Of a stretch of DNA of 64,000 nt, positions 6,831 through 63,855 are shown piece after piece. The stretch is from positions 43,099 to 107,098 of the forward strand of contig CASENE010000001.1 of NCBI GenBank assembly GCA_949289265.1. The letters run 5' to 3'. The notes under the pieces are model-generated. The model saw nothing but the letters and a program-made list of their open reading frames with translations, did not search any database and had not been told where the DNA came from. The DNA comes from an uncultured Bacteroides sp. (GTDB taxonomy: Bacteria > Bacteroidota > Bacteroidia > Bacteroidales > Bacteroidaceae). Position numbers and translations under genes: made by a program. The first letter of the stretch is position 1, and every line of letters starts with the position of its first letter.

Positions 6831-8983
6831 TCTGCCAGCGCGAAGTCCAGCTGCTTCTTCTCCAGGTTGGCGCGGGCCACCTGGATGGTGACGGCGTCGC
6901 CCAGGCTGTAGACGTGCTTCTTGCGCCGTCCGCGCAGGCAGTAGTTCTTTTCGTCGTATTCGTAGTAGTCGTCGTCCAGGTCGCGGATGGGTATCATGCC
7001 CTCGCACTTGTTCTCGTTCAGCTCCACGTAGAGGCCCCACTCGGTGACGCCGGAGATAACGCCGTCGTACGTCTGCCCCACGTGTTCCTGCATGAACTCC
7101 ACCTGCTTGTATTTGATGCTGGCCCGCTCGGCGTTGGCGGCCAGTTGCTCCATGGCGCTGCTGTGGTCGCACAGGGCCTCGTATTTTTTTTCGCTGACGG
7201 TGCGTCCGTGTTCGTCCAGGTACTTCGTCAGCAAGCGATGCACCATCATGTCCGGATAGCGGCGGATGGGCGAGGTGAAGTGCGTGTAGTAGTCGAAGCC
7301 CAAGCCGTAGTGGCCTATGTTGTGCGTGGAGTAGCGTGCCTTCTGCATGGCGCGGATGGATACGGTCTCGATGAGGTTTTCTTCTTTCTTTCCCTTGACG
7401 TCCTTCAGCAGGTGGTTGATGGACTTGGAGAGGTCGGTCTTGTTGCCTGCCGTGCGCAGTTTGTAGCCGAAGCGTCCGATGAACTGGGCCAGGTTGTCCA
7501 GCTTGGCGGGGTCGGGCAGGTCGTGGATGCGGTAGGGGAAGACCTTGGCCTTCTTGCCCTTGGGCACCTTACCGATAGCTTCGGCCACGGTGCGGTTGGC
7601 CAGCAGCATGAACTCCTCCACCAGCTTGTTGGCGTCTTTCGACTCTTTGAAGTAGACGCGCAGGGGCTTGCCTTTTTCGTCAATCTCGAACTTCACCTCC
7701 ACGCGGTCGAACTCCAGCGCGCCGCCGGCAAATCGCTTCTCGCGCAGCTGCTTGGCCAGTCGGTCGAGTTCCAGCAACTCGAACTTGTAGTCTCCCTCGC
7801 CCGTCTCGATGACTTGCTGTGCCTCCTCGTAGGTAAAGCGGCGGTCGCTGCGGATGACGGTGTGCACGATGCGCGAGTCCTGCACCTCGGCCCGGTCGTT
7901 CAGGGTGAAGATGACGCTGTAGGCCAGCTTCTCTTCGTCGGGGCGGAGCGAGCAGAGCAGGTTGCAGAGCCGTTCGGGCAGCATGGGGATGGTGCGGTCG
8001 ACGAGGTAGACGGACGTGGCGCGCCGCTCGGCTTCCTTGTCGATGACGGTGCCCTCCTTGACGTAGTGGGTGACGTCGGCAATGTGCACGCCCACTTCCC
8101 ACAGTCCGCCTCCCAGGCTGCGGATGGACAGCGCGTCGTCGAAGTCTTTGGCGTCCTTGGGGTCGATGGTGAAGGTGGTGACGCGGCGGAAGTCCTCGCG
8201 CCGGGCGATTTCTTCGGGCGGTATCTCGTCGGGAATCTTGTCGGCGGCGGCTTCCACGTTCTTGGGGTAAGAGTAGGGCAGGCCGAACTCGGCCAGGATG
8301 GCGTGCATCTCGGTGTTGTTGTCGCCCGAGCGGCCCAGGATGTCCACCACCTGTCCGATGGGGTTCTTGGCCTTGTCGGGCCATTCGATGATTTTCACCA
8401 CGGCCTTGTCGCCCGTACGTCCGCCCTTCAGCTTGTCTTTAGGGATAAAGATATCGTTGGCCAGGGTGCGGTTTTCAGTTAGCAGGAAGGCGTAGCCGCG
8501 CGTTACCTCCAGCGTGCCCACGAAGCTGTCGTTGGCACGTTCCAGCACTTCCAGCACTTCGCCTTCGGCCGTCTTGCCGCGGCGGCGGGCGTAGTAGGCG
8601 ATGCGCACGCGGTCGTTGTTCATGGCGTGGGCCGAGTTGCGCTCGGCGATAAAGATAGGGTCGCCGCCGTCGTCGGGGATGAAGGAGTTCTTGCCGTTGC
8701 TCTTGCGCACGAAGCGGCCGGTCATCTCCACGCCGCGCTGGTGCAGGCGGTATTGGTGGTGTTCGGTCTCGTTGATGTAGTCGTCTTCCTTCAGGCCGGC
8801 CAGGATGTCCATGCAGAGCATCTTCATGGGGTGCGTGGTGAGGCGCAGTTGCTCGAAGATTTGCTTCAGCGACACGGTTTCGCCGCCTTTCGTGTGGAAG
8901 TAGTCCAGCAGCAGGCTCGTGAGTTGCTTCTTGCTCATGCGTTTGCCCGCCTTCTTTTCTCGTTTGTCTTTCTTCTTGCCCAT
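6827..8983 (-). CDS. rnr: Ribonuclease R
   Basis: 718 residues from the ATG at 8983, which gives a Lys-rich N-terminus (MGKKKDKREKKAGKRMSKKQ); an upstream in-frame Met (9139) would only add unrelated sequence. Domain order is a winged-helix/OB N-terminal part, cold-shock domains around residues 80-230, and an RNB catalytic domain with the signature DPKDAKDFDDA (near residue 280) and ISPIRRYPD-type HFTSPIRRYPDMMVHRLL. The C-terminal S1 domain begins YDGVISGVTEWGLYVEL. It is a processive 3'-5' exoribonuclease that degrades structured RNA. It converges on the ABC ATPase gene. Confidence 0.96.
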   Translation of the reverse strand: MGKKKDKREKKAGKRMSKKQLTSLLLDYFHTKGGETVSLKQIFEQLRLTTHPMKMLCMDILAGLKEDDYINETEHHQYRLHQRGVEMTGRFVRKSNGKNSFIPDDGGDPIFIAERNSAHAMNNDRVRIAYYARRRGKTAEGEVLEVLERANDSFVGTLEVTRGYAFLLTENRTLANDIFIPKDKLKGGRTGDKAVVKIIEWPDKAKNPIGQVVDILGRSGDNNTEMHAILAEFGLPYSYPKNVEAAADKIPDEIPPEEIARREDFRRVTTFTIDPKDAKDFDDALSIRSLGGGLWEVGVHIADVTHYVKEGTVIDKEAERRATSVYLVDRTIPMLPERLCNLLCSLRPDEEKLAYSVIFTLNDRAEVQDSRIVHTVIRSDRRFTYEEAQQVIETGEGDYKFELLELDRLAKQLREKRFAGGALEFDRVEVKFEIDEKGKPLRVYFKESKDANKLVEEFMLLANRTVAEAIGKVPKGKKAKVFPYRIHDLPDPAKLDNLAQFIGRFGYKLRTAGNKTDLSKSINHLLKDVKGKKEENLIETVSIRAMQKARYSTHNIGHYGLGFDYYTHFTSPIRRYPDMMVHRLLTKYLDEHGRTVSEKKYEALCDHSSAMEQLAANAERASIKYKQVEFMQEHVGQTYDGVISGVTEWGLYVELNENKCEGMIPIRDLDDDYYEYDEKNYCLRGRRKKHVYSLGDAVTIQVARANLEKKQLDFALAD

Positions 8984-9151
8984 AGCAGTGTGGTTAGTCT
9001 TTGCAAAGCTAAGAAATAATTGCATATGCGCCGCCGTTCGTGGGAAGAAAAAAATGCGCGCCTGCCTGTGGGGAGCGGCCTGCCGGCATCCCTTGACGGG
9101 AGACGATTGCTTAAAATCGCGCGGAATGGTGCGGCGCAAGGCAGAATGTGC

Positions 9152-9159
9152 TATCTTTG
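9152..9159 (+). promoter_or_regulatory. Bacteroidetes -7 promoter box upstream of CDF exporter
   Basis: TATCTTTG matches TAnnTTTG exactly and lies 33 bases before the ATG at 9192. The rest of 8984-9191 holds no gene. Confidence 0.7.
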
Positions 9160-9191
9160 CGCCGTCTTATCAACCAAGGAGAATATAGCGT

Positions 9192-10109
9192 ATGGATACA
9201 GGCAAGATTGGGACGGCGGACACCGTCCGGCGCGAACGTGAGATTTATCGGGTGACCATCGTGGGCAGCGTGGTCAACTTCGTGCTGCTGCTCTTCAAGT
9301 TTTTTGCAGGCATTGCGGGCCATAGCGCGGCCATGATTGCCGACGCGGTGCATTCACTGTCCGACTTCGTGACGGATATCATCGTGCTGGTGTTCGTGCG
9401 CATCTCGTCCAAGCCCGAGGACGAGGGGCATGACTACGGGCACGGCAAGTATGAGACGCTGGCCACGGCCATCATCGGCCTTTGTCTCTTTGCCGTGGGG
9501 CTGGGCATCTTGTGGAACGGGGCGGAGGCCATCTGGCACGTTGTCCGGGGCGGGACGCTGCCGCAGCCGGGTATGCTGGCGCTGTGGGCGGCTCTTATTT
9601 CCATCGTGTCCAAGGAAGCTCTTTACCAATACACGGTGTTCGTGGGGCGCAAGGTGCAGTCGCAGGCCGTGGTGGCCAACGCGTGGCATCACCGCAGCGA
9701 CGCCTTCTCGTCCATCGGCACGGCGGCGGGCATCGGCGGGGCCATCCTGCTGGGCGACCAGTGGCGCGTGCTCGACCCGATAGCGGCCGTCATCGTCAGC
9801 TTCTTCATCCTGAAGGTGTCCGTCAAGCTCCTGGTGCCCTCTATGAACGAACTGCTGGAGAAGTCGCTGCCCGCCGAGGTGGAGAACCGCATCAACGAGA
9901 TTGTTCTCTCTTATCCAGGCGTCACCTCGCCCCACCACCTGCGCACGCGCCGCATCGGCAACAGCTATTCCATCGACCTGCACGTGCGCATGGACGGCAG
10001 CCTCACGCTGGAGGAGGCCCACCGGCGGGCCACCGTCATCGAGCATCGCCTGCGCGAGGAGTTCGGCAAGGGGACGTACATCAGCCTGCATGTGGAACCG
10101 TTTAAATGA
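9192..10109 (+). CDS. Cation diffusion facilitator (CDF) family transporter
   Basis: A 305-residue inner-membrane protein with about six helices in the first 215 residues and a cytoplasmic C-terminal ferredoxin-like domain. CDF hallmarks are HSLSDFVTD in helix 2, HDYGHGKYETLA in the loop after helix 3 and HHRSDAFSS in helix 5. These His/Asp residues form the Zn2+/divalent-cation site in the family. It exports Zn2+, Fe2+ or similar metals in exchange for protons; the exact ion cannot be read from the sequence. It is transcribed alone, preceded by its own promoter box and followed by an inverted-repeat region. Confidence 0.93.
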   Translation: MDTGKIGTADTVRREREIYRVTIVGSVVNFVLLLFKFFAGIAGHSAAMIADAVHSLSDFVTDIIVLVFVRISSKPEDEGHDYGHGKYETLATAIIGLCLFAVGLGILWNGAEAIWHVVRGGTLPQPGMLALWAALISIVSKEALYQYTVFVGRKVQSQAVVANAWHHRSDAFSSIGTAAGIGGAILLGDQWRVLDPIAAVIVSFFILKVSVKLLVPSMNELLEKSLPAEVENRINEIVLSYPGVTSPHHLRTRRIGNSYSIDLHVRMDGSLTLEEAHRRATVIEHRLREEFGKGTYISLHVEPFK

Positions 10110-16949: not shown

Positions 16950-18890
16950 TTATTCCTCCTGCACCAAGTCTTCTTCCACCACCAGGTTCTGGATGATGAA
17001 GTTCTGCCGCTCCATGGTGTTCTTGCCCATGTAGAATTCCAGCATTTCCTTCACCAGGTCGGTCTTGCGCAGGGTGACGGGCTCCAGGCGCATGTCCTTG
17101 CCGATGAAGTGGCGGAACTCGTCGGGGGAGATTTCGCCCAAGCCCTTGAAGCGGGTGATTTCCGGGTTGGGACCCAGCTCTTGGATGGCGCGCAGGCGTT
17201 CGTCTTCGGTATAGCAATAGGTGGTTTTCTTCTTGTTACGCACGCGGAACAGGGGCGTCTGCAGGATGTAGACGTGTCCCTTCTTGATGAGGTCGGGGAA
17301 GAACTGTAGGAAGAACGTAATCATCAGCAGGCGGATGTGCATGCCGTCCACGTCGGCATCCGTGGCCACGATGACCTTGTTGTAGCGCAGGCCTTCCATG
17401 CCGTCCTCGATGTTGAGAGCCGCCTGCAGGAGGTTGAACTCTTCGTTCTCGTACACCACTTTCTTGGTCAGCCCGTAGCTGTTCAGCGGTTTGCCTCGCA
17501 GCGAGAAGACGGCCTGCGTGTTGACGTCGCGGCTCTTGGTGATGGAGCCGCTGGCCGAATCGCCCTCGGTGATGAAGATGCACGACTCCGCCTCCTGCTC
17601 CTTGCCCTTGCCGTCGCTCAGGTGGTAGCGGCAGTCGCGCAGCTTGCGGTTGTGCAGGTTGGCTTTTTTGGCGCGTTCGCGGGCCAGCTTCGTCACCCCG
17701 GCGATGGCCTTGCGCTCTTTCTCCGAGTCCTGTATCTTTTGCAGCATCACCTCGGCCACCAGCGGGTTCTTGTGCAGGTAGTTGTCCACCTCGGTCTTGA
17801 TGAAGTCGCCCACGTATTTGTTGATGGTCGGGCCGGCGGGCTTGTTTTCCTGCGGGACGGCCGGCCACATGTTGTTGCTGCCCAGTTTCGTCTTGGTCTG
17901 GCTCTCGAACATCGGTTCCTCCACGTTGATGGCGATGGCGGCCACCAGCCCGTTGCGGATGTCGGCGTAGTCGAAGTTCTTGTTGAAAAACTCTTTGATG
18001 GTGCGGGCCAGGTGTTCTTTCAGGGCCGACTGGTGCGTGCCCCCTTGCGTGGTGTGCTGCCCGTTGACGAAGGAGTAGTATTCCTCGCCGTATTGGTTGG
18101 TGTGGGTAAAGGCTATCTCGATGTCCTCGCCCTTCAGGTGGATGATGTCGTAGAGACCCTCGCTGGTCATGTTGTCCTTCAGCAAGTCCTCCAGTCCGTG
18201 GCGCGAGAGGATGCGCTGGCCGTTGTAGACGAAGGTCAGGCCCGTGTTGAGATAGGTGTAGTTGCGCAGCAGGTTTTCCACGAACTGGTTCTGGAAGCTG
18301 AAGCCCGTGAACAAGGTGTCGTCCGGCTCGAAGTAGATGAACGTGCCCGTCTCTTCGTTGCTTTCCTCGGTCGTGTCGCTTTGCAGCACGCCCCGCTCGA
18401 AGACCACGGCGCGCACCTTCCCGTCCCGATAGCTGCGCACCTCAAACCTGGAGCTCAGCGCGTTCACCGCCTTGATGCCCACGCCGTTCAGTCCCACGCT
18501 CTTCTTGAACGCCTTCGAGTCGTATTTGCCGCCCGTGTTCAGCTTGCTCACCGCCTCCACCAGCTTGCCCTGCGGGATGCCCCGTCCGTAGTCGCGCACG
18601 CTGACGCGGCGGTTGTCCTCGATGGTCACTTCGATTTTCTTGCCCGCTCCCATCTTGAACTCGTCTATCGAGTTGTCCAGCGTCTCCTTCAGCAGCACGT
18701 AGATGCCGTCGTCGCTCTGGCTTCCGTCGCCCAGGCGGCCGATGTACATGCCCGAGCGCACACGGATATGCTCCATGTCGTCCAGGTGTCGGATGTTTTC
18801 CTCGGTGTAGTCCACGGCGGGTTGCGTCACGTCTTGCGTGCCGTTCGCCTCGTCCAGCGGCAGTGTCAGGTTGTTATCGGGTGTCTCCAT
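16950..18890 (-). CDS. parE: DNA topoisomerase IV subunit B (GyrB/ParE type)
   Basis: 646 residues from the ATG at 18890. A GTG at 18914 is excluded because it overlaps the -7 promoter box. The GHKL ATPase domain shows [14 protein letters not shown], the Asn-containing [11 protein letters not shown] and [16 protein letters not shown] with the lid motif [14 protein letters not shown]. The transducer follows, and the TOPRIM domain has [10 protein letters not shown] and [14 protein letters not shown]. The length matches ParE rather than the longer GyrB. It forms the ATPase half of the decatenase; parC is not in the window. Confidence 0.93.
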
Positions 18891-18913
18891 ATGTTCAAGT
18901 CGGCAATTTGGCA

Positions 18914-18921
18914 CAAAGATA
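18914..18921 (-). promoter_or_regulatory. -7 promoter box of parE
   Basis: Minus-strand TATCTTTG is an exact TAnnTTTG match about 24 bases before the parE ATG and decides the start codon. Confidence 0.75.
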
Positions 18922-19050
18922 ATGATTTTTTTGATAAGTCGGGCCGGGGAGGCGGGCTGTTCGTTCCGCTGTTCAGAAAACTTGACTTTTCCGTCCGGAA
19001 TACCTGCCCCCTTCCACGGCTTTCGCTCGTCCGATGTTCGTCTTCCTGGA

Positions 19051-19094
19051 GACGAAGGAGGGACGAAGGAGGGACGACCCGGGGACGAAGGAGG
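19051..19094. repeat. 11-bp tandem direct repeat at the left edge of the AT-rich island
   Basis: GACGAAGGAGG occurs at 19051, 19062 and 19084, with a degenerate copy at 19073, all in strict 11-base register. The base composition switches from GC-rich to AT-rich immediately to the right. The rest of 18922-19200 holds only this repeat and the promoter of the downstream operon. Confidence 0.8.
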
Positions 19095-19158
19095 AGTGCG
19101 CGAGATGCATATTTGCCAAAAAAGTATTCTTAGGATACATATTTTCGAGAATATTTTT

Positions 19159-19166
19159 TACCTTTG
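19159..19166 (+). promoter_or_regulatory. -7 promoter box of the radical SAM/Tyr-peptide operon
   Basis: TACCTTTG matches TAnnTTTG, 34 bases before the first start codon. An imperfect dyad (GTATTCTTAGGATAC, 19124-19138) lies just upstream and could be an operator; no -33 TTTG at ideal spacing is seen. Confidence 0.65.
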
Positions 19167-19200
19167 TGGAAAGAAAATCTTTTCTACATGAATTACCTGT

Positions 19201-20199
19201 ATGCCTAATGTGCTTCTAACAGAAACGTGTGTCCGGAGTTGTCCTTATTGTTTTGCCAAACAATATATGCAGGATGCGGATGTTGGCGATGCTTTGACGT
19301 GGGATAACTTGATTTATATTGCAGATTTGCTTCTGGCTTCCGGCGAACGCCATCTCTCTCTTTTGGGTGGCGAGCCGTTGATACATCCGCAAGTGGCCGA
19401 GTTTATTGCCTACTTGAATAGGCGGGGCATTGCGGTGACTGTGTTTACAAGCGGCATCATGCCTGATAAGAAGTTTGAGCCGTTTGTCGAAAAACTTTTT
19501 TCATTTCCGGATTTGGAAGTGGCTTTTGTGGTGAATGTGAACGAGCCTAAATATTGCAAGCCCTCGGAGTTGGAAAGAGTGAGGCGTTTTTTGTCTGTTT
19601 TCTCTCAACGGGCATCGTTGAGTTTCAATATTTACAGGCTGGACTTTAATATGGCTTTTTTGGCCAATTACATCATTGATTATCATCTGAACAGGCACAT
19701 ACGGCTTGGCTTGGCTCATCCTATTCCCGGGAAGAAAAACCTGTACATATCGCCCGAACATTTTGGCGAGGTGAAGGATAAACTTCTTGCTTTCTTCAGA
19801 GAGTTTGAGAAATTGCATATAGATCCTGGCTTTGATTGCGGTTTCCCGATGTGTATGTTTACAGACGAAGAGTTAGGTAGGGTGTTCAAATACACTGTCG
19901 GACAATGCTCGTTTCAATGTGGGCCGGCCATTGATATCGGTACGGATCTGAGTGTATGGTCTTGTTTTCCGCTTTCCGGATTCAAGAAGCGTAGCCTGCT
20001 GGAGTTTAACAGCTTTGGCGAGATTGTCGATTTTTATCAGGCAGAGATAGAAAAGGTCCGGCAAGAAGGAGGGGGCATTTATCCGGCATGTTCTACTTGT
20101 CTTTACAGACAGAAGCGTCTTTGCTCGGGAGGATGTTTGGCTCATGTATTAAACCATTGGATGGAAGAAGGGAGGTGGAATGAGGATGTCACAGCATAG
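19201..20199 (+). CDS. Radical SAM enzyme 1 of putative RiPP operon, with C-terminal Cys-rich (SPASM/twitch-like) region
   Basis: 332 residues. The 4Fe-4S/SAM motif CxxxCxxC is at residues 10-17 (TETCVRSCPYC), followed by the GGE motif in LLGGEPLIHP. The start at 19201 is the first Met after an in-frame stop. The C-terminal third carries many cysteines: FDCGFPMC, GQCSFQCGP, SCFPLSG and CSTCLYRQKRLCSGGC, consistent with auxiliary Fe-S clusters as in peptide-modifying SPASM/twitch enzymes. It is the first gene of an AT-rich operon ending in an exported Tyr/Asn-rich peptide, so peptide modification is the likely role; the exact reaction is unknown. It overlaps the next gene by 20 bases. Confidence 0.85.
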   Translation: MPNVLLTETCVRSCPYCFAKQYMQDADVGDALTWDNLIYIADLLLASGERHLSLLGGEPLIHPQVAEFIAYLNRRGIAVTVFTSGIMPDKKFEPFVEKLFSFPDLEVAFVVNVNEPKYCKPSELERVRRFLSVFSQRASLSFNIYRLDFNMAFLANYIIDYHLNRHIRLGLAHPIPGKKNLYISPEHFGEVKDKLLAFFREFEKLHIDPGFDCGFPMCMFTDEELGRVFKYTVGQCSFQCGPAIDIGTDLSVWSCFPLSGFKKRSLLEFNSFGEIVDFYQAEIEKVRQEGGGIYPACSTCLYRQKRLCSGGCLAHVLNHWMEEGRWNEDVTA

Positions 20200-20830
20200 T
20201 GGAGAAATGCTTGCAGACGGGCATGCATGTCGTTTGCTTGACTATGGCCAGCAAATGCTTTCGGAGATAAATTTTGATGCTTCGTGGCGTGAGTTTCATG
20301 GGGGCGTCAAAGTGGGTGGAATGGGTGATGTGATGGCGGTTTTGAGGGATATCGACAGGCTGCGGGAAATAGATGTACGTGTCTATTTTCCGGGTGATGA
20401 TGTCCAAAGTTATTCTCATCTGAAAATGTTAGCTTCTTTAGGCGTTGGTTGTGGTTTGTGGCTGGATGAGGAGGTGCAGCTCAGTGATGAGTATTTTGTG
20501 GATTTGGCATCTTATCATTTCATGTCTCCGGTGCCTCATGCGGGGATAGAGCCTTTTGCTTATATTTCATCGCGTCTTGACGAGGAGAAAAACATACGCC
20601 CGTTAGACCTGTACTCGGCCATGGATACCCGGGATGCGGCGGATGCTGATTTTGAGTCGCGCCTGCGCACGTATTATCATCATTTTATGGAATTGGACGC
20701 TTGCGCTAAATGCAAGGCCTTCCGTATTTGTTGCGGATGTCTGAAAAATAATTTTTCTGATTGCGAGCAAGTCATGGGTGAAACGTTGGAATATGTTGTC
20801 CTTGGCGAAAGGTTAAAGAATAATGAATGA
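20180..20830 (+). CDS. Truncated SPASM-like partner protein lacking the radical SAM cluster motif
   Basis: 216 residues (Met at 20180 or 20186; GGAGGT lies just upstream). No CxxxCxxC motif is present. The middle (VRVYFPGDDVQSYSHLKMLASLGVGCGLWL) looks like the late half of a radical SAM barrel. The C-terminus has a Cys cluster (CAKCKAFRICCGC, about residues 175-187, then a later Cys) like a SPASM motif that could hold an Fe-S cluster. It overlaps enzyme 1 by 20 bases and is followed after 3 bases by enzyme 2. It could be a catalytically inactive partner or recognition subunit, comparable in principle to pseudo-rSAM proteins of other Bacteroidales peptide systems. I do not recognise a named family. 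Confidence 0.8.
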   Translation: MRMSQHSGEMLADGHACRLLDYGQQMLSEINFDASWREFHGGVKVGGMGDVMAVLRDIDRLREIDVRVYFPGDDVQSYSHLKMLASLGVGCGLWLDEEVQLSDEYFVDLASYHFMSPVPHAGIEPFAYISSRLDEEKNIRPLDLYSAMDTRDAADADFESRLRTYYHHFMELDACAKCKAFRICCGCLKNNFSDCEQVMGETLEYVVLGERLKNNE

Positions 20831-20833
20831 AAT

Positions 20834-21943
20834 ATGCCTACATTGATATTTAAAGAGACGGAAGCCTGCAATTCCAATTGCATTTATTGTGATGTGATTG
20901 CGCGTAAGCAACCTAAGACGATTAGTCTTGAATTGCTTGAGAGGGTTTTTGCAAGCATCAATGATTATCTGGAGGAGAATCCGAAAGAGTGGATGAGTAT
21001 TGTGTGGCATGGGGGGGAGCCCTGCATAGTAGGGGCTGGTTTTTATCGAAAGGTGCTTGACATTGTTCGCAAGGTTTGTCCTCAGACCATGCAACGAATT
21101 GAATATGATATCCAGACCAATCTTACGCTTATCAATCAAGAATTGATAGATGTTTTCAAAGAAATGGGAATAGATAGGGTAGGAACCAGTTATGAACCTT
21201 ATAAAGGCATTCGCGGATTTGGTGCACAACGGGATTCGGACGCGTATAATCGTTTGTTTTTTCGCGGGATAGACTTGATTGAGCGCAACGGTTTTTCTTG
21301 GGGATTCATTTATGTGGTTACGAAGCGTGTGCTTGACAAACCGCTTGAATTGTTCCGTTTGCTGACAAATTTCAAGGTGCGTGGCGGATTCCAGTTGCAT
21401 CCTGTGTATTCTTATAAGAATGAAGATCCGAATGGTGTGGGAATAACAGCTAAAGAGTTTGCTGATTTTTTAGGGGTTATTTTTAAGGAATGGTGGAGTT
21501 TGCGAGAATTATATCCTTTTGTGGAGCCGTTTTTTTCGTATATGAATCATTATGGGAGAGGGGGTGCTGTTTGCTGTAGTGACAGTGGCGAGTGTGCCTA
21601 TTCTCATATTTACATAGGTCCCGATGGAGAAATCTCTCATTGTGGGCGTTCTTCGGATTGGGACGTGTTTGAGGTGGGGAATATTAGGGATATGAGTGTT
21701 TCGGAGGCATTCAGGAGCGCTTATCGCGAGGATATCGCACGGCGTTCTTCTTATTTGCAGAATAACGATTGCAAGGGATGCGAGTATTTCAAGATATGTC
21801 ATGGTGGTTGTCCTTTGGATGGTTGGAATGCAAAGGGTACTATATTCGCAAAGACGGAATGGTGTTTGAGTAAGAAGTATTTTCTGAAGGAATATTTCGA
21901 GCCAATAACGGGTTTGAAATTTGATGGAAGTAAGTATTTGTAA
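20834..21943 (+). CDS. Radical SAM/SPASM peptide maturase (enzyme 2)
   Basis: 369 residues. The motif CNSNCIYC lies at 12-19 within LIFKETEACNSNCIYCDV, followed by the GGE motif WHGGEPCIVG. A SPASM domain near the C-terminus shows SGEC, IYIGPDGEISHCG and CKGCEYFKICHGGCPLDGW, then a final TEWC. The layout matches anSME-like SPASM maturases, including those that install three-residue cyclophanes. The substrate is most likely the Tyr/Asn-rich peptide encoded 25 bases downstream. Composition is AT-rich compared with housekeeping genes of the window, indicating acquisition. Confidence 0.9.
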   Translation: MPTLIFKETEACNSNCIYCDVIARKQPKTISLELLERVFASINDYLEENPKEWMSIVWHGGEPCIVGAGFYRKVLDIVRKVCPQTMQRIEYDIQTNLTLINQELIDVFKEMGIDRVGTSYEPYKGIRGFGAQRDSDAYNRLFFRGIDLIERNGFSWGFIYVVTKRVLDKPLELFRLLTNFKVRGGFQLHPVYSYKNEDPNGVGITAKEFADFLGVIFKEWWSLRELYPFVEPFFSYMNHYGRGGAVCCSDSGECAYSHIYIGPDGEISHCGRSSDWDVFEVGNIRDMSVSEAFRSAYREDIARRSSYLQNNDCKGCEYFKICHGGCPLDGWNAKGTIFAKTEWCLSKKYFLKEYFEPITGLKFDGSKYL

Positions 21944-21968
21944 TCAGGGATGTCTAAATATTTGAGGT

Positions 21969-22358
21969 ATGGAAAATGACAAAAAAATGACACGGCGTGA
22001 GGCTTTAAAGCGTATGGCGAAAGTTGCTACAGGCATAATAGGCTTGGCAGCATTACCTTCTGTCGTGGCTGATGCGCAATATTATTATAAGTATTATAAC
22101 TACTATAATTCAGGCTATGGGCATGGCGGTTATACGAAATACTATAATTATTACCGAAATTACTACAATTATTATTCTAATTACTATAATTATTCCAATT
22201 ACAGTAATTATATGAACTATAGTAACTATTATAGTAATTATATGGATTATAACAACTATAGTAATTACTATAATGTGTCATACTATTATACCAATTATTC
22301 CAATTACTATCGCAATTATTATAATAGATATTATAATTATCTTAAATTCGGATATTGA
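21969..22358 (+). CDS. Exported Tyr/Asn-repeat peptide, candidate RiPP precursor
   Basis: 129 residues. Residues 1-36 form a signal peptide with a twin-arginine-like start (TRREALKRM), a hydrophobic core (ATGIIGLAALP) and a likely cleavage after ADA36. The remaining 93 residues contain 42 Tyr and 21 Asn and no Cys. Twenty of the 21 Asn lie in Y-x-N triplets (for example Y75-S-N77, Y78-S-N80, Y81-M-N83) and one more site is Y-M-D (91-93). Spacing is mostly three residues, sometimes four. This fits aromatic-x-Asn three-residue crosslinking by a radical SAM enzyme, although a structural or amyloid-like low-complexity protein is an alternative. Its stop overlaps the next start (TGATG). Confidence 0.85.
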   Translation: MENDKKMTRREALKRMAKVATGIIGLAALPSVVADAQYYYKYYNYYNSGYGHGGYTKYYNYYRNYYNYYSNYYNYSNYSNYMNYSNYYSNYMDYNNYSNYYNVSYYYTNYSNYYRNYYNRYYNYLKFGY

Positions 22359-23068
22359 TGTCGCTGAATATTGCTGTGTTTGTGCCAGAAGGCATTGTGA
22401 TTTCTTCGGATACGCTTTCATTCGTGAAAAACGGGGATGATGGCTATTTTTCAGTGGCAGAACGTACTTTCTGCTTGTGGAATCGTTACATCCTGTCTTT
22501 TGCCGGCAATGGCTATATGGATGGATTGCCTTATGGATATTATGTCAATGCCTTTTTGTCCGAATATCATTCGCATGATGTGGAGACAACGGATTGCTTG
22601 ATGAAACTCTTTTCTGGTTTCGTGATGCGGTGTGTCCCTGATAATGAAGAGGTCATTTATTGTGCAGGCTATGATGCCGAAGGGACTCGTCAGATTCCTT
22701 GCCTTTGGTTATGGGATAAAGGACAGATGGCTCGTCTGAATTATGATGAACGCTGTTCTCAGCCGTTGTATAATTATCATACCGTAGGAAATAGTGTGTG
22801 GATAAACAAATTGCTTCTTCCTACTACTTTTGAGGATTCGGTTGTTAATAGGAAAGAGGAGTTTCTGGCAGCCGATATAGATTTTTCTAAGTATTCTATA
22901 TCGACAGCGGTGGAGTTCGCTCATTTCCTGTTGGATTTGACAGGGACAATGGATGTTGTCACGCAAAGGAGAATTACTGTAAACAAATCGTTTACAACGG
23001 CATGTGTAGTTCCTGTGAAAGGCGCTTACATACAGCGTAGAGATATTCAGGCTTCTTTTCTTTTTTAG
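22358..23068 (+). CDS. Proteasome-like Ntn-hydrolase candidate of the RiPP operon
   Basis: 236 residues from the ATG at 22358 (a TTG at 22355 is also possible). After removal of Met1 the chain would start with Ser. Counting that Ser as 1, a Gly falls at 11 and Asp at 17 (EGIVISSDT), the positions of Gly11 and catalytic Asp17 in proteasome beta subunits after Thr1. A later LSFAGNGYMDG resembles the proteasomal AG..xD segment, and TAVEFAHFLLDLTGTMDVVTQRRITV resembles the C-terminal helix-strand. The usual Lys33 is not obvious. I infer an Ntn-type hydrolase or a degenerate relative that may cleave the peptide. It is translationally coupled to the precursor and converges on a GNAT gene with a 4-base overlap. 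Confidence 0.6.
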   Translation: MSLNIAVFVPEGIVISSDTLSFVKNGDDGYFSVAERTFCLWNRYILSFAGNGYMDGLPYGYYVNAFLSEYHSHDVETTDCLMKLFSGFVMRCVPDNEEVIYCAGYDAEGTRQIPCLWLWDKGQMARLNYDERCSQPLYNYHTVGNSVWINKLLLPTTFEDSVVNRKEEFLAADIDFSKYSISTAVEFAHFLLDLTGTMDVVTQRRITVNKSFTTACVVPVKGAYIQRRDIQASFLF

Positions 23069-24201
23069 CTAATCTCTTTCACGAACGCCCGTCTCCGCTT
23101 GTGCTGTTCCGTCCGGAAGTATTCCCATTGGGCCTGCACCTTGCCGTTCAGTTCCAGTTCGGGATTGCTTTCGGCGTATTCAAAGCCCAGCTGTTGGTAG
23201 ACGGGGATGAGGTCGGAGAAGAGCAGGGCGTTGACTCCCTTGTTCTGGTATTCGGGCTTGACGGCTACGAGCAGGAGGTCGAGGATGTGCGAACGCTTCT
23301 TGAAGAACAGGGCCTTGAGCAGGTAGAACCAGCCGAAGGGCAGGAGGCGTCCGTGTGACTTCTGCAACGCGCGGGACAGCGAGGGCATGGAGATGCCCAC
23401 GGCCACCAGTTGGTCGGTTGCGTCGGTGATGAGGGTCACCATGCGCAGGTCGAGGATGGGCAGGTACATCTTGACGTACTGGTCTATCTGGCCTTGCGTC
23501 AGGGCGGAATAGCCGTAGAGGGGCTGGTAGGCTTCGTTGACCAGCTCGAAGATGGCCTGGCCGTATTCTTGGGCCAGCTTCTTGCCGGAGGTGTATTTCT
23601 TGATTTTCAGGTTGTATTTGCGCTGGATGAGGTCGGAGATGCGGCGGTGCTTGTCGGGGATGGCGTCGGGGACGTATATCTTGTATTCCACCCAGTCGGC
23701 GTCTTTCCGGAAGCCCAGGCGTTCGATGTGCTGCGGGTAGTAGGGATAGTTGTAGGTGGTGGCCATCGTGCCCAGCTGGTCGAAGCCTTCGATGAGCATG
23801 CCCTCGGCGTCCATGTCGGTGAAGCCCAGGGGACCTACGATGTCCGTCATGCCGCGCTCCTTGCCCCATTGTTCCACAGTGCGGATCAGGGCCTCGGACA
23901 CTTCCGTGTCGTCCGTGAAGTCTATCCACCCGAAACGGACGTTCTTCTTCCCCCATGCCTGGTTGGCGCGGTGGTTGATGATGGCGGCCACGCGGCCTGC
24001 CAGCCGTCCGTCTTTGTAGGCCAGGAAGTAGTCGGCCTCGCAGAACTCGAAGGCGGCATTCTTCTGGGGGTTGAACGTGTTGAGCATGTCGTCGTAGAGG
24101 TCGGGCACGGAGTAGGGGTTGCCTTTGTAGAGCTCGTAGTTGAAGCGGATGAAGCGCTTCAGGTCGCGCCGGGTGGTGACTTTCTTGATGGTAATGGCCA
24201 T
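23065..24201 (-). CDS. GNAT-like N-acyltransferase family protein
   Basis: 378 residues, GC-rich like the chromosome. The N-terminal part contains ITIKKVTTRRDLKRFIRFN and DGRLAGRVAAIINHRAN, the second half a GNAT-like region ending VAVKPEYQNKGVNALLF (an acetyl-CoA-loop-like QxxGVN). It belongs to a Bacteroidales family of conserved proteins usually annotated only as hypothetical or GNAT; the acyl donor and acceptor are unknown. A full-length paralogue is at 29003-30139 at the head of the polyene/lipid operon. The gene has its own promoter box about 24 bases upstream. Confidence 0.8.
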   Translation of the reverse strand: MAITIKKVTTRRDLKRFIRFNYELYKGNPYSVPDLYDDMLNTFNPQKNAAFEFCEADYFLAYKDGRLAGRVAAIINHRANQAWGKKNVRFGWIDFTDDTEVSEALIRTVEQWGKERGMTDIVGPLGFTDMDAEGMLIEGFDQLGTMATTYNYPYYPQHIERLGFRKDADWVEYKIYVPDAIPDKHRRISDLIQRKYNLKIKKYTSGKKLAQEYGQAIFELVNEAYQPLYGYSALTQGQIDQYVKMYLPILDLRMVTLITDATDQLVAVGISMPSLSRALQKSHGRLLPFGWFYLLKALFFKKRSHILDLLLVAVKPEYQNKGVNALLFSDLIPVYQQLGFEYAESNPELELNGKVQAQWEYFRTEQHKRRRAFVKEIS

Positions 24202-60246: not shown

Positions 60247-62097
60247 TTATTTAGTTAAGATATCGTTGAACGCAGCCACCAGTTCGCTCACCACGAAGGG
60301 TTGGCCTTTCACCTCGTTGTACTGATAGGGCACGAAGCCGTCCACCTTCATGCGCAGGTATCCGGCAAACTGCCCCAGGTTCTGCTCGGCCACGACGACC
60401 TTGGGATACCGTCTCAGCACCTCCGCCGTGTTCTTGGGCAGCGGGTTGATGTAGTTGAAGTGGGCCAGGGCCACCTTGCGTCCCGCCTTGTTCAGTTCGT
60501 CCATGGCGGAATAGAGGTGTCCGAACGTTCCGCCGAAGCCCACGATGAGCAGGTCGGCATCGTCGGCGCGGCCATATACTGGGACGTCGGGCACGGGAAT
60601 CTTGGCTACCTTCTCGGCACGCAGGCGGCACATCAGGTTGTGGTTCTCCGGGTCGGTGGAGATGGCGCCCGTCCAGCTGTCCTTCTCCAGACCGCCCAGG
60701 ATGTGGGCGAAGCCCTCTTGCCCGGGGATGGCCCAGTAGCGCACGCCCGTCTCGGCGTTGCGGCGGTAGGGGGCATAGTGTCCCTTCATGGCCTCCTGCA
60801 CGTAGGGCGGGCGGATGTCGGGATAGGCGGCCAGGTCAGGCAGGCGCCACGCGCCCGAGCCGTTGGCCACGTAGCCGTCGGTCAGCAGCACCACGGGCGT
60901 CATGTGTTCCAGGGCAATCTTGCAGGCCATGTAGGCGGCGTCGAAGCAGTTGGTGGGCGACGTGGCGGCGATGACCGGCATGGGGCTTTCGCCGTTGCGG
61001 CCGAACAGGGCCTGCAGCAGGTCGGTCTGCTCAGACTTGGTGGGCAGGCCCGTGGAGGGGCCGCCGCGCTGCACGTCCAGCACCACCAGGGGAAGCTCGG
61101 TGATGACGGCCAGGTTCATGGCTTCGGACTTGAGGCAGACGCCGGGGCCCGAGGTGGACGTCACGGCCAGTGCTCCGGCAAACGAGGCGCCGATGGCCGT
61201 GGAGCAGCCCGAAATCTCGTCCTCGCACTGCACGGTCATCACGCCCAGCGACTTGTGTTTGGACAGTTCATGCAGCACGTCGGTGGCCGGAGTGATGGGG
61301 TAGGAGCCGAGGAACAGCTTGAGGCCGGCCTTTTCGGCGGCGGCGATGAAGCCGTAGGCTGTGGCTTTGTTGCCCGTGATGTCCATGTAGCGGCCCGGCA
61401 CTTTCTCTTTGCTCTCGATGCGGCAGGTGGCATGGGCGATGGAGGCGTGCGTGTTGTGCCCGTAGTCCCATCCGGCGTGAATCACCTTGATGTTGGCCTC
61501 GGCCACCTGCGGCTTCTTGGCAAACTTCTCGCGCAGGAACACTTCGGCTATGGTCAGGTCGCGGTCGAAAAGCCAGCACACCAGTCCTACCACAAACATG
61601 TTGCGGCACTTCAGCATCGCCTTGTTGTCCATGCCCGTGTCGGCCAGGCAGTCCTTGACCATCCGGGTGATGGGCGCGGCGATGAGTTCCTGCCGGATGC
61701 CCAGTTCCTGGATGGGGTCGTCGGTGGCGAAGGCCGCCTTCTCCAAGTCCGACTTCTGGAACGCATCGGTGTCTATGATGATGCATCCGTTCGGCTTGGC
61801 AAACTTGTATTGTGTCTTCAGGGCGGCGGCATTCATGGCCACCAGCACGTCGCACTGGTCGCCCGGCGTGTAGACCTTGCGGGCGCCCACGTGCACCTGG
61901 AAGCCCGATACGCCCGTCAGCGAGCCTTGCGGGGCGCGGATGTCTGCCGGATAGTCGGGGAAGGTGCTGATGTCGTTTCCCACCGTAGCCGAAACTGTTG
62001 AAAAGATGTTGCCGGCGAGCTGCATACCGTCGCCGGAGTCACCGGAAAAGCGTACTACCACTTCGTCCAGTTCTTTGACCATCATGTCGTTTGCCAT
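60247..62097 (-). CDS. korA: 2-oxoglutarate:ferredoxin oxidoreductase, fused gamma-alpha subunit
   Basis: 616 residues from MANDMMVKELDEVVVRFSGDSGDGMQLAG at 62097; an upstream Met at 62154 adds unrelated sequence. The N-terminal gamma-type domain (about 10-190; FPDYPADIRAPQGSLTGVSGFQ) is fused to the pyrimidine-binding alpha domain (GSYPITPATDVLHELSKHK; EDEISG; SGPGVCLKSEAMNLA) and a C-terminal domain II (VVVAEQNLGQFAGYLR). This gamma-alpha fusion is normal for Bacteroidetes KorA. It binds the 2-oxoacid and works with KorB. Confidence 0.95.
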   Translation of the reverse strand: MANDMMVKELDEVVVRFSGDSGDGMQLAGNIFSTVSATVGNDISTFPDYPADIRAPQGSLTGVSGFQVHVGARKVYTPGDQCDVLVAMNAAALKTQYKFAKPNGCIIIDTDAFQKSDLEKAAFATDDPIQELGIRQELIAAPITRMVKDCLADTGMDNKAMLKCRNMFVVGLVCWLFDRDLTIAEVFLREKFAKKPQVAEANIKVIHAGWDYGHNTHASIAHATCRIESKEKVPGRYMDITGNKATAYGFIAAAEKAGLKLFLGSYPITPATDVLHELSKHKSLGVMTVQCEDEISGCSTAIGASFAGALAVTSTSGPGVCLKSEAMNLAVITELPLVVLDVQRGGPSTGLPTKSEQTDLLQALFGRNGESPMPVIAATSPTNCFDAAYMACKIALEHMTPVVLLTDGYVANGSGAWRLPDLAAYPDIRPPYVQEAMKGHYAPYRRNAETGVRYWAIPGQEGFAHILGGLEKDSWTGAISTDPENHNLMCRLRAEKVAKIPVPDVPVYGRADDADLLIVGFGGTFGHLYSAMDELNKAGRKVALAHFNYINPLPKNTAEVLRRYPKVVVAEQNLGQFAGYLRMKVDGFVPYQYNEVKGQPFVVSELVAAFNDILTK

Positions 62098-62167
62098 AAT
62101 CTCTATATATTCTTGTTTATTGGGTATTCGTTTTGCATGGTATCGCCCAGGCATCGGGCAAATTTCG

Positions 62168-62175
62168 CAAAGTTA
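62168..62175 (-). promoter_or_regulatory. -7 promoter box of korAB
   Basis: Minus-strand TAACTTTG matches TAnnTTTG, about 70 bases before the korA ATG, divergent from the tRNA promoter. Confidence 0.6.
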
Positions 62176-62219
62176 ATCGGATTCACAAAACATTTCTTCG
62201 TAAAATCAACCGAAAGCAT

Positions 62220-62227
62220 TATCTTTG
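62220..62227 (+). promoter_or_regulatory. -7 promoter box of tRNA-Arg
   Basis: TATCTTTG, exact TAnnTTTG match, 29 bases before the mature tRNA 5' end. Confidence 0.75.
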
Positions 62228-62256
62228 CGTCCAAAATACGCCGCTTGGCGTGTCCG

Positions 62257-62331
62257 GCCTTGGTAGTTCAACGGATAGAACAAGTGTTTCCTAAACATTA
62301 AATAGGGGTTCGATTCCCCTCCGAGGTACCA
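62257..62331 (+). tRNA. tRNA-Arg (anticodon CCT)
   Basis: A complete 75-base cloverleaf including encoded CCA. Acceptor GCCTTGG pairs with CCGAGGT (one G-T and one T-G wobble), D stem GTTC/GAAC, anticodon stem AGTGT/ACATT with loop TTCCTAA (anticodon at 62290-62292), 4-base variable loop, and T arm AGGGG-TTCGATT-CCCCT. The discriminator is A. It reads AGG codons. The 3' end borders an AT-rich region with small accessory genes, consistent with use as an integration site. Confidence 0.95.
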
Positions 62332-62510
62332 CAAAATATACTTATTTTATTATTAATCAACTATTTATATTTTATCGGGTTGCCAAAGGGTTGCCAATAT
62401 ATTAAAATACTCCACTTTTAGGGTAATTACAGGGAACTTGTTGGAACTGCCCAATATAACAAACGGGCAAAGCCTTTGAAGCTCCACCCGTTTCTCATTT
62501 CAACCGTTTT
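62332..62510. other. AT-rich junction after tRNA-Arg, possible attachment-site region
   Basis: The sequence becomes strongly AT-rich immediately after the tRNA CCA. GGGTTGCCAA occurs twice in an 11-base register (62377-62386 and 62388-62397), a pattern seen near recombinase arm sites. AAACGGG...CCCGTTT (62461-62493) may be a weak terminator for the minus-strand gene to the right. No gene or integrase is visible in this 179-base stretch. Confidence 0.5.
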
Positions 62511-63107
62511 TCAACCGATTATTGATTTTATCTTTTCTTCAAGTCGCTTGCTTGCCGCCAAATCAAACTTTCTATAATACTCTAAAGCCTTATCCACTTG
62601 TGGGCATTTGCTATCAACATCATACAGTCTTGTTAATAATGCCTCTCTACAATCATACAGATAACAGGAAAAGGCTTTTTCCTTTTTAAACATCGTTCTG
62701 GCTTCTTTCAAATCCCGCCTTAGTGATTTTTCATCATCGGCATAGGCGGCAATGTATTTGCCAAATGCAGATGCTTCCACCTTGTTAAGTTTCTCTTTCT
62801 TTGATAGGTAGTTTTCATAAGTCACTTTCTTAAACTTCATATACTCCCTTATCTTGCCCTCTATTTCCTCTTTGTTGAGGCTTCTTGCTTCCAATAGTGC
62901 CAAATGCAGGAACTCCACACAATCATAATAGTAGGCGGTATGCTCTATTTCCATTTCAAGCCGCCTTGCCGCTTTCCTGTGTTCCATTGCTTCATCCACA
63001 TAAAGCCGCCTTAATCTGGCTCTGTCCTGCTCACACTTCCATAACAAACGCTGTGCCTTTGCCACCGTGCCTAAGTTCTGGCACACTCTTACTTTTTTCT
63101 TCTTCAT
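62511..63107 (-). CDS. Hypothetical helical protein of mobile element
   Basis: 198 residues from MKKKKVRVCQNLGTVAKAQ (an in-frame Met at 63137 would add 10 residues). It is rich in Lys, Glu, Arg and Leu with long helical stretches (KCEQDRARLRRLYVDEAME, IEGKIREYMKFKKVTYENYL) and probable coiled-coil character; no catalytic motif or membrane segment. Composition is AT-rich, unlike the chromosome to the left. I do not recognise the family; accessory proteins of Bacteroides integrative elements are candidates. Confidence 0.7.
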   Translation of the reverse strand: MKKKKVRVCQNLGTVAKAQRLLWKCEQDRARLRRLYVDEAMEHRKAARRLEMEIEHTAYYYDCVEFLHLALLEARSLNKEEIEGKIREYMKFKKVTYENYLSKKEKLNKVEASAFGKYIAAYADDEKSLRRDLKEARTMFKKEKAFSCYLYDCREALLTRLYDVDSKCPQVDKALEYYRKFDLAASKRLEEKIKSIIG

Positions 63108-63137
63108 TACTTGATATATTGATAGACATTTAGGCAC

Positions 63138-63482
63138 AAAGAAACGGTGTGCCTTTCCCGCTGTCTATCACCTTATCAAGTAGGCTGTAAGTCCATTACA
63201 GACATTACACGGGGGTACACACCGCTAACTTATAGAGTGCAAAGCCTCAATCAGTAGATACAAAAAATCCACCAATCGGCAAAGACGGTGGAAACGTGCC
63301 ACCTACTTGACATTAAAATGATAGACAATGCAAAAGTAGCCTTTTCCTTTGGCACGGCAAAACTTTCAAGCCCCAAATAAGCTGTTTTAAGGCAAAATAA
63401 AAGGTTGGGCGATACATTTACCGTCCAACCTGTTTTAATTGAATGTAGTGCTGGTTCCTGCCGTCTGTCAGCCGTTCCCCCG
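63138..63482. other. 345-base non-coding stretch with promoter-like box and terminator
   Basis: It contains a minus-strand TACTTTTG box (63331-63338) about 220 bases upstream of the 62511-63107 gene, and a terminator for the genes to the right. An 88-codon frame through this region (63251-63517) has no family resemblance and runs across the terminator, so I do not call it. Confidence 0.5.
63397..63431 (-). terminator. Intrinsic terminator of the small-gene operon
   Basis: 10-bp stem AGGTTGGGCG / CGTCCAACCT (one wobble) followed on the minus strand by TTTATTTTG. Confidence 0.8.
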
Positions 63483-63683: not shown

Positions 63684-63855
63684 CGTTATCTATGTTATCT
63701 TCTTCATCTGCATCAAGTTGTATCAATAAGTCCAGAAAGTCATTGTTGCCCCTAATCTCTTTGTAAAGTCTGGGTATCTTGGCGGTGTCTAACTCGCCTT
63801 TGCTCACGGCTACCAACAAAGCCGCTTTTTCTTCTTTGTTCAACTTTAGCTTCAT
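63673..63855 (-). CDS. Small hypothetical protein of mobile element
   Basis: 60 residues from the ATG at 63855 (GTG at 63861 is an alternative); AGGGGTG lies just upstream. It is acidic at the C-terminus and mostly helical (LNKEEKAALLVAVSKGEL). No family recognised. It overlaps the alpha-CTD-like gene by 11 bases and starts 2 bases after the upstream stop, so the three genes are one transcription unit. Confidence 0.6.
   Translation of the reverse strand: MKLKLNKEEKAALLVAVSKGELDTAKIPRLYKEIRGNNDFLDLLIQLDADEEDNIDNDGR

Follow-up and report, generated by a model that had tools for sequence, protein, structure and literature searches.

A candidate RiPP-like cassette combining two radical SAM enzymes with Tyr-rich repeat peptides that bear twin-arginine leaders

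Among the described systems closest to the locus reported here, the His-Xaa-Ser (Hxs) system comprises two radical SAM (rSAM) enzymes, HxsB and HxsC, together with HxsD and a repeat peptide, and the dynobactin and darobactin systems have precursors and gene sets that differ from those of our cassette. HxsB and HxsC are named in PMC9062424, and YxdB, of an enzyme class with i to i+2 links, forms a C3(Tyr)-C-beta(Asp) link (PMC11002830). On the side of secreted surface proteins, TibC glycosylates adhesins (PMC4358343). Literature searches found no published natural link between rSAM peptide modification and the Tat pathway, the engineered case being nisin sent through Tat (PMC11048544).

Cassette layout and insertion site

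Within the window (the whole 64,000-nucleotide stretch of Bacteroidales DNA analysed here), we found a five-gene cassette, all on the + strand, in the order rSAM1, SPASM-like partner, rSAM2, peptide and last gene (Table 1). The rSAM1 and SPASM-like reading frames overlap by 20 bases, gaps of 3 and 25 bases separate the SPASM-like frame from rSAM2 and rSAM2 from the peptide gene, and the peptide stop overlaps the ATG of the last gene by 1 base (TGATG; we used this start, 22358, where the ORF list gives a TTG at 22355). G+C content is 0.421 in the cassette versus 0.606 in the rest of the window, and third-position G+C spans 0.32-0.49 in the cassette genes versus 0.86 and 0.88 in the two neighbouring genes. 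A preliminary description of this DNA had proposed five coupled genes forming an AT-rich operon, and its coordinates, overlaps and gaps were all reproduced; the cassette has 42% G+C within a 61% window.

Table 1. Positions of the cassette genes and of the inserted segment in the window
Feature	Position	Strand	Description
rSAM1	19201..20199	+	332 aa; N-terminal CxxxCxxC, Cys-rich C-terminal region; PF04055
SPASM-like partner	20180..20830	+	216 aa; without CxxxCxxC; profile alignment with rSAM2
rSAM2	20834..21943	+	369 aa; radical SAM/SPASM, peptide-maturase type; PF04055 and PF13186
Putative precursor peptide	21969..22358	+	129 aa; twin-arginine leader, Tyr/Asn repeat core
Accessory protein (last gene)	22358..23068	+	236 aa; relative only in L007 among 14 loci
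Inserted segment	18822..23064		No DNA match in L065; from comparison with same-genus regions

The insertion sits between a ParE-like gene (16950-18914, minus strand) and a GNAT-like gene (23065-24201, minus strand). Comparison with 14 fetched same-genus regions revealed these flanking genes adjoining without the cassette in six (L065, L071, L073, L074, L075, L076), another gene between them in two (L067, L069) and a different arrangement in L072, with the ParE-like gene falling outside the stretch in five. Because the flanks adjoin in those six regions, the cassette is an insertion, apparently an acquired one. In other regions, the ends of the matches fall within tens of bases of the segment edges. 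The unmatched segment begins inside the ParE-like gene, whose 5' end has diverged and extends to 18914, which places the true left edge further right. No tRNA lies at the insertion site (in the window, a single tRNA was found, at 62257-62331), and a search there for a clear target-site duplication found none; a 15-base near-repeat (93%) occupies 18986-19000 and 23104-23118, its second copy within the GNAT-like gene. Phage or plasmid carriage was rejected, given that rSAM2 had no tblastn match among plasmids (E 1e-30) and that 33 pattern matches checked among viral contigs included no rSAM1 relative.

Conservation of the cassette and its enzymes

Searches with limits of E 1e-20 in some cases and 1e-40 in others revealed 13 related loci in 13 other genomes, spanning the window's order (taken as Bacteroidales) and one other class. 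The resulting 14 loci (the window, L007, L008, L009, L024, L025, L026, L027, L028, L056, L059, L060, L061 and L062) include three cut by contig ends (L026; L056, whose peptide is open at its end; and L061, which stops before rSAM2), a nearly identical pair (L059 and L060) and three from one family (L024, L028, L056). A second order-level search added neither genome nor cassette, and rSAM1 occurs in 1 of 345 genomes of a class-level sample, that one being the window's own (G000).

Within the reach of the contigs, all 14 loci show the order rSAM1, SPASM-like partner, rSAM2, and a Tyr-rich repeat peptide adjoins the enzymes in 13, downstream in ten and upstream in three (L027, L061, L062), with the L026 contig ending 145 bases after rSAM2. 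Putative precursor and modifying enzymes are thus linked and co-conserved, as in RiPP systems, in 13/14 loci. The preliminary description had held that enzyme homologues occurring without the peptide would speak against it, and our neighbourhood survey turned up none outside the contig-cut L026. A distant rSAM1-like pair in G291 (L029; 219 and 155 bits), with no Tyr peptide within the 18 kb read, we treat as another family and exclude from the locus counts; counted as a homologue, it would weigh against peptide linkage. By eye, the same stretch holds a PqqD-like small ORF. Modification of the peptide is a prediction from gene content, and low-complexity proteins can gain tandem Tyr repeats without modification, so the enzymes might act on some other target, with the Tyr-rich protein an unmodified surface protein sharing the operon by chance; yet peptide and enzymes stay linked in 13/14 loci across two classes, with the peptide on either side, and we regard such a coincidence as very improbable.

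Both rSAM1 (48.0 bits) and rSAM2 (39.4 bits) exceed the PF04055 Radical_SAM cut-off of 29.5, upholding the earlier reading of two radical SAM enzymes, and rSAM2 also passes PF13186 SPASM (29.5 bits vs 21.5). The NCBIfam matches of rSAM1 score low and fall mainly in its N-terminal part (17.2 of 27 bits for the SPASM model), and the HxsC model is absent from the 16 NCBIfam families that its members match at E <= 1e-5. Its Cys 10, 14, 17, 213, 218, 240, 255, 297, 300 and 308 are invariant in 14/14 loci and Cys 312 is kept in 13/14, counts that leave out the G291 pair. Between L008 and L009, the rSAM genes have dN of 0.048-0.077 versus dS of 1.2-1.3, a contrast that we count in favour of the reading proposed below.

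For rSAM2, all nine members scanned match DynA, sulfatase maturase, DarE and DarW at E <= 1e-20, and eight of the nine match GrrM/OscB, AmcB and YhhB at that limit. Scores of the window rSAM2 against NCBIfam cut-offs are 143 bits vs 349 for sulfatase maturase, 138 vs 450 for DynA, 103 vs 310 for GrrM/OscB (E 1.5e-29), 100 vs 425 for AmcB, 89 vs 445 for YhhB (E 3.8e-25), 63.7 vs 370 for HxsB, 62 vs 370 for FxsB and 61 vs 450 for XyeB. Among the matches listed, rSAM2 is below cut-off for every named cyclophane-forming rSAM/SPASM family, and the generic SPASM domain model is the only NCBIfam model that any cassette protein passes; the HMM search proposed in the preliminary description thus returned no named family above cut-off among those matches. 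Invariant in 13/13 rSAM2 members are Cys 12, 16, 19, 248, 254, 270, 313, 316, 322 and 326 as well as Gly271, the position after the third SPASM Cys. The closest solved structures by sequence, 4k36 and 4k37 (anSME), have at this position an Asp that we take to be catalytic in anSME; with Gly in its place and a score below the family cut-off, rSAM2 does not qualify as an anSME. Judged from these comparisons, rSAM2 is a radical SAM/SPASM enzyme of the peptide-maturase kind. None of the proteins scanned with Pfam lists a match to PqqD (the RRE recognition domain), and the RRE is missing from many RiPP systems.

The SPASM-like partner, present in 14/14 loci, has no Pfam or PDB-sequence match and only three chance-level NCBIfam matches. 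In profile comparison it aligned with rSAM2 over 177 columns (82.6% probability), in the second half of that enzyme and with the C-terminal Cys motif included, versus no homology with rSAM1 (probability 1.2%). Its length varies from 153-154 aa in three loci of one genus, through 216 aa in the window, to 274-307 aa in ten relatives. We consider it a probable pseudo-radical-SAM partner, and the earlier label of a truncated SPASM-like partner seems fair in view of the alignment.

The last gene matched nothing in Pfam (limit E 10, with weak matches mostly filtered out), NCBIfam or PHROGs, nor any PDB sequence significantly (best E 0.39), and occurs in 2/14 loci, its L007 relative sharing 36% identity. 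Its earlier description as proteasome-like, and with it a proteasome/Ntn hydrolase reading, was dropped for want of family or sequence support and in view of this distribution, by which the gene is peripheral to the cassette core.

Repeat peptides and twin-arginine leaders

The window peptide consists of a leader of about residues 1-36 and a repeat core of 93 residues, bearing out the earlier description of a 129-residue, Tyr/Asn-rich peptide with an export signal. Its core holds 24 non-overlapping [YFWH]-x-[NDSQKR] triplets versus 14.3 expected, a count reached in 0/500 shuffles, with the proviso that shuffling overstates significance where repeats are tandem. Across the family, such aromatic-x-polar triplets exceed all 500 shuffles in 11/16 peptides, whereas enrichment is weak in L056, L059, L060 and L062 (4-29 of 500 shuffles reach the observed count) and lacking in L061, with its repeat GYGVSGDYVAS (403/500). 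The majority of repeats are rich in Tyr-x-Asn/Asp/Ser and one is clearly otherwise; at a period of three, Y-x-N is indistinguishable from N-Y.

We favour a cyclophane chemistry because of the triplet enrichment in 11/16 peptides and the published triceptide-type C-C link between Tyr and Asp (PMC11002830). Modification of the peptide also gains from rSAM2 having peptide-modifying enzymes and sulfatase maturases as its closest families; against it counts that, among the matches listed, no peptide family outscores sulfatase maturase for the window protein (138 vs 143 bits). The triplet enrichment and the published link weigh against, without removing, a substantial minority chance that the logic of rSAM modification and Tat export holds with other chemistry, rSAM1 and rSAM2 performing different reactions (e.g., Tyr oxidation, ether links, decarboxylation, hydroxylation, epimerisation). 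Such chemistry would fit the rSAM2 scores under the cut-offs of cyclophane families among the matches listed, the weak matches of rSAM1 members to peptide-maturase models (PapB best, E about 7e-8), the departure of the L061 repeat from the triplet, and the ether link made by the darobactin synthase DarE (PMC9055067).

Fifteen of the 16 peptides carry a twin-arginine (Tat-type) leader, RR followed by a hydrophobic stretch as in Tat substrates, with the L027 peptide being without RR. None of 11 peptides scanned passes the TIGR01409 Tat-signal model (cut-off 16.7 bits): L061 reaches 16.5, L024 15.5, the second L009 copy 13.2, the 168-aa L025 copy 13.0 and L007 12.2, and the model is unlisted for six, the window's included. 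A same-strand tatA lies in or beside the cassette in 5/14 loci (L008, L009, L024, L028, L062), and tatC is also near it in two; this tatA linkage has P = 3e-8 if the chance per locus is 0.7%, a guessed rate applied to loci that are not all independent. Near the cassette, the other nine loci, window included, show no tat gene (contig ends cut three of these nine), and in G000 one tatC was found, with tatA adjoining, on another contig. Of the earlier claim that the peptide brings its own export signal, the leader therefore stands, but its Tat type and the tatA and tatC genes of some relatives had been missed.

Turning to the likely destination, 3/16 peptides end in a C-terminal Lcl_C adhesin domain (Pfam), two of the three from loci with nearly identical rSAMs, and a GT9 glycosyltransferase-like gene occurs in 8/14 loci (four Pfam-confirmed; none in the window cassette), which together point to a surface product. 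A conventional RiPP, released as a small diffusible bacteriocin or signal peptide, seems improbable against these Lcl_C fusions, against the repetitive cores, which span 49-145 residues in the 13 peptides that carry no further domain, and against ORF lists in which we recognised no peptidase or ABC transporter by eye (the family search covering part of the neighbours). It would agree with the dynobactin and darobactin maturases standing among the nearest rSAM2 models listed, with the action of darobactin on Gram-negative bacteria (PMC9055067), and with the two peptide copies in each of L008, L009 and L025.

Proposed pathway and comparison with described systems

We tentatively read the cassette, at slightly less than an even chance, as a RiPP-like family with cytosolic modification, folded export through Tat and a probable surface destination. 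The preliminary description's candidate new RiPP, an unnamed family of rSAM enzymes with a repeat peptide, gains from the conserved linkage, with no named NCBIfam family passing among the matches listed. The Tyr-rich precursor would be made with its twin-arginine leader, and rSAM1 and rSAM2, aided by the SPASM-like partner, would modify the repeat region in the cytosol, the most likely link running from the Tyr ring to the C-beta two residues on (Tyr-x-Asn/Asp/Ser) and producing small cyclophanes in series. The GT9-like enzyme of some relatives may also glycosylate the product. The stiffened product would then leave folded via the Tat translocase, whose genes adjoin the cassette in some relatives and lie at another place in the window's genome; the leader would be cut at an AxA-like site, and the product would probably end at the cell surface. 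A more specific version, which we hold to be unlikely in its entirety, has a Tyr cyclophane ladder along most of the peptide, sometimes glycosylated, that would be too stiff to thread through Sec and so would depend on a partly dedicated Tat, forming a rigid surface fibre or adhesin stalk.

If true, the tentative reading would connect radical SAM peptide modification with Tat, a pathway that carries folded proteins. It would explain how a peptide modified in the cytosol, and perhaps impossible to thread, exits a Gram-negative cell, supply a testable Tat cargo, and suggest that rSAM chemistry builds surface structures as well as antibiotics. In the fibre version, cyclophane chemistry would also serve a structural role, and the peptides would form a RiPP class that uses Tat naturally for export. 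Comprising the peptide, two rSAMs and the partner, the minimal gene set is compact enough to be tested in laboratory E. coli.

Compared with described systems, cassette relatives resemble the TibC family (GT9 autotransporter heptosyltransferases) in that a GT9 gene neighbours a secreted protein of surface type, but the window cassette lacks GT9 and only the broad Pfam family is common. With anSME, rSAM2 shares aligned SPASM cysteines but differs in its score and in Gly271 (13/13) where anSME has Asp. DynA, DarE and DarW are, with sulfatase maturases, the nearest rSAM2 families among the NCBIfam matches listed, yet even DynA is far under its cut-off. The Hxs system likewise combines a pair of rSAM enzymes with a partner and a repeat peptide, but its repeats are of His rather than Tyr, the HxsB model scores far under its cut-off and no HxsC model figures among the rSAM1 matches at E <= 1e-5. 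Triceptide enzymes (XncB, OscB/GrrM, MscB, YxdB, HaaB, YhhB) are likewise SPASM rSAMs with a neighbouring peptide that carries aromatic-x-(Asn/Asp/Ser) motifs, and the window peptide has the repeated aromatic-x-(N/D/S/Q/K/R) motif of that class. Unlike them, our cassette, with its predicted cross-link, has an rSAM2 scoring far below the family cut-offs, two rSAMs with a probable pseudo-rSAM partner, a twin-arginine leader, tat genes in some loci and long Tyr-rich cores.

Gene content and insertion of the cassette

Reading the open reading frames of the window, we found five genes in the cassette, all in the same direction (rSAM1, a SPASM-like partner, rSAM2, a Tyr-rich precursor peptide and an accessory gene), and the overlaps and gaps proposed in the preliminary description were borne out by the ORFs and the sequence. 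In Pfam, rSAM1 and rSAM2 each score above the cut-off for radical SAM, and rSAM2 scores above that for SPASM too. The middle gene product had no match in Pfam and none by sequence in the PDB; profile comparison aligned it with the second half of rSAM2 over 177 columns (82.6% probability), CxxxCxxC is absent from it, and it looks like a pseudo-radical-SAM partner. The window peptide begins with MENDKKMTRREALKRMAKVATGIIGLAALPSVVADA. By eye this is laid out like a twin-arginine signal whose end is AxA-like, and the core after it consists mainly of Tyr, Asn and Ser.

G+C content is 42.1% in the cassette versus 60.6% in the remainder of the window, and its third-position G+C is 0.32–0.49, while the GNAT-like and ParE-like genes that flank it have 0.86 and 0.88. 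The SPASM-like protein occurred in 1/151 genomes sampled from the family, only that of the window (G000), and the GNAT-like gene in 40/41 genomes of the same genus. Across 14 same-genus regions from other genomes, GNAT-like is present in all 14 and ParE-like in 9, and the two adjoin in 6 of those 9 (L065, L071, L073, L074, L075, L076), the four measured spacings between flank alignments being 415 (L065), 188 (L071), 10 (L073) and 175 (L076) bases; a further gene sits between them in L067 and L069, and L072 has a different arrangement. Window positions ~18822-23055 had no blastn match in any of the 14 stretches. Because the flanks adjoin elsewhere and this segment is unmatched there, the cassette has been inserted here, and the site is a variable one.

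In L067 and L069, from two other genomes of the genus, the site is occupied by an unrelated gene of 617–628 aa, hexosaminidase-like by eye. The second AT-rich stretch of the window may be another acquired segment, and the transposase-like ORFs of L059 are a possible route of cassette spread.

Coordinates of the cassette, its flanks and features of related loci
Sequence	Position	Strand	Feature
Window	16950-18914	minus	ParE-like gene
Window	19051-19094		tandem of four 11-base G+C-rich units (3 identical, 1 variant), immediately upstream of cassette
Window	19201-23068		five-gene cassette
Window	23065-24201	minus	GNAT-like gene
Window	62001-64000		second AT-rich stretch, 41% G+C, with small ORFs
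Window	62257-62331		tRNA-Arg
L029 (G291)	7232-9398		tandem distant rSAM1-like enzymes with PqqD-like small ORF (by eye)
L059	3478-4673		transposase-like ORFs (by eye) beside cassette
L061	7478-7840		divergent RR-leader peptide, GYGVSGDYVAS repeats, adjoining same kind of enzymes

Enzymes and spread of the family

Across 14 loci, rSAM1 and the partner are present in 14, rSAM2 in 13 (the L061 contig stops before it) and a Tyr-rich peptide in 13 (the L026 contig stops 145 bases past rSAM2), giving 16 peptides, with two apiece in L008, L009 and L025. The window's last gene is confined to 2/14 loci, the window and L007. A GT9-like (glycosyltransferase) gene accompanies 8/14 loci; Pfam assigned GT9 in 4 of 5 tested (L024, L025, L028 and L060, not L007), those of L056 and L062 are homologues of L007's gene, and an L059 ORF opens like L060's.

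Scanning genome contigs with rSAM2 returned three loci, namely L007 (Muribaculaceae, water buffalo omasum; 76% identity to window rSAM2), L008 (Bacteroidaceae, red deer; 63%) and L009 (Bacteroidales, sheep rumen; 63%). All three belong to Bacteroidales, and on that ground we assign the window to this order as well. Profiles of rSAM1 hit 7/393 genomes in the order sample (G000, five further cassette carriers, and G291, whose pair is distant), 1/345 in the class sample (G000) and 5/395 in the phylum sample (G000 and four of one genus in another class), and sampling that other class itself gave the identical four (4/98). By family, they hit 3/6 genomes for G165, 1/1 for G189 and 1/4 for G471.

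Trees paired the window with L007, adjacent to L008/L009, with support of at least 0.93, the other order members and the other class forming further groups; in the rSAM1 tree the G291 pair fell among those of the other class (support 0.47). This tandem pair looks like a separate kind of peptide-modification cluster. Between L008 and L009, dN/dS were 0.077/1.175 for rSAM1, 0.048/1.324 for rSAM2 and 0.196/1.367 for the partner, and the peptides changed more quickly (dN 0.26–0.28); dS between the window and L007 was saturated, giving no ratio.

At E <= 1e-20, rSAM2 matched DynA, sulfatase maturase, DarE, DarW and TIGR04083 in 9/9 scanned members and GrrM/OscB, AmcB and YhhB in 8/9, with bit scores for the window and L062 far below those families' cut-offs. 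The structures nearest rSAM2 by sequence are those of anSME (4k36/4k37), with which its SPASM cysteines align, but Gly271 (Gly in 13/13 members) replaces the Asp after one SPASM Cys, which we take to be catalytic in anSME. Matches of window rSAM1 to MoaA, viperin and PqqE models are confined to its N-terminal third; with conserved C-terminal cysteines, rSAM1 looks like a family of its own.

Precursor peptides and Tat genes

Twin arginines occur in 15/16 leaders, L027 being the exception. Among 11 peptides scanned, five matched the Tat-signal model TIGR01409 at 16.5, 15.5, 13.2, 13.0 and 12.2 bits, all below its cut-off of 16.7, and the model was not among the matches listed for the other 6.

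Non-overlapping [YFWH]-x-[NDSQKR] triplets exceeded all 500 shuffles in 11/16 peptides; their count was reached by 4/500 in L056, by 8/500, 14/500 and 29/500 in L062, L060 and L059, where the test took in the Lcl_C part, and by 403/500 in L061. The repeats of L061 make the motif wider than Tyr-x-Asn. For the window and L007, z peaked at offset +2 (5.3 and 4.9), and +1 outscored +2 in L024 and both L025 peptides, these z-scores being generous since shuffles preserve composition and not repeat history. An Lcl_C domain (PF07603), named from the Legionella collagen-like adhesin (PMC11162425), follows the repeat in L059 (39.1 bits), L060 (41.4) and L062 (44.9; cut-off 34.9).

Pfam confirmed TatA in 5/14 loci (L008, L009, L024, L028, L062) and TatC in 2/14 (L008, L009); five tatA neighbours have a chance probability of 3e-8 at a guessed 0.7% per locus, with the five loci not all independent. 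Tat transports folded cargo, and tat genes near some cassettes fit with cargo that Sec cannot thread. The cassette-side tatC is the only one found in the L009 genome, and the L008 genome has a second. In G000 one tatC was found; its neighbour on contig C23 is tatA, which makes Tat export possible there. We consider export of the peptide via Tat very likely. An engineered route through Tat has been described for nisin (PMC11048544).

Proposed mechanism and comparison with known systems

Some radical SAM modification of the peptide is, in our judgement, highly probable. The peptide would be modified first and exported second, an order that is likeliest for SAM enzymes that work in the cytosol and whose clusters are sensitive to oxygen. 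The triceptide enzyme YxdB makes a Tyr-to-Asp C-C link, and triceptide links connect i and i+2 (PMC11002830); with the Tyr-x-Asn/Asp/Ser repeats, this suggests that the peptide would carry a chain of such links, and we put the chances evenly on their being cyclophanes. TibC-family GT9 enzymes add sugars to adhesins (PMC4358343), which together with the Lcl_C fusions favours a surface product, and we lean towards a surface role.

Our literature search, confined to papers readable without a subscription (and so not the 2022 survey of triceptides that PMC11002830 cites), returned no paper joining radical SAM, twin-arginine and precursor peptide, and no title or abstract opening among the related matches listed described such a family. 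The accessible text of a Bacteroidales RiPP survey (PMC10352776) is without 'Tat', 'twin' or 'tyros'. Radical SAM clusters with aromatic-x-Asn motifs in their peptides are described in PMC9062424, whose main text, as far as accessible, is without 'Tat' or 'Bacteroid', and some cluster there may touch the cassette family. Within these literature limits, we regard the gene set and Tat-type export as new here, and the logic of RiPPs made by radical SAM enzymes as known.
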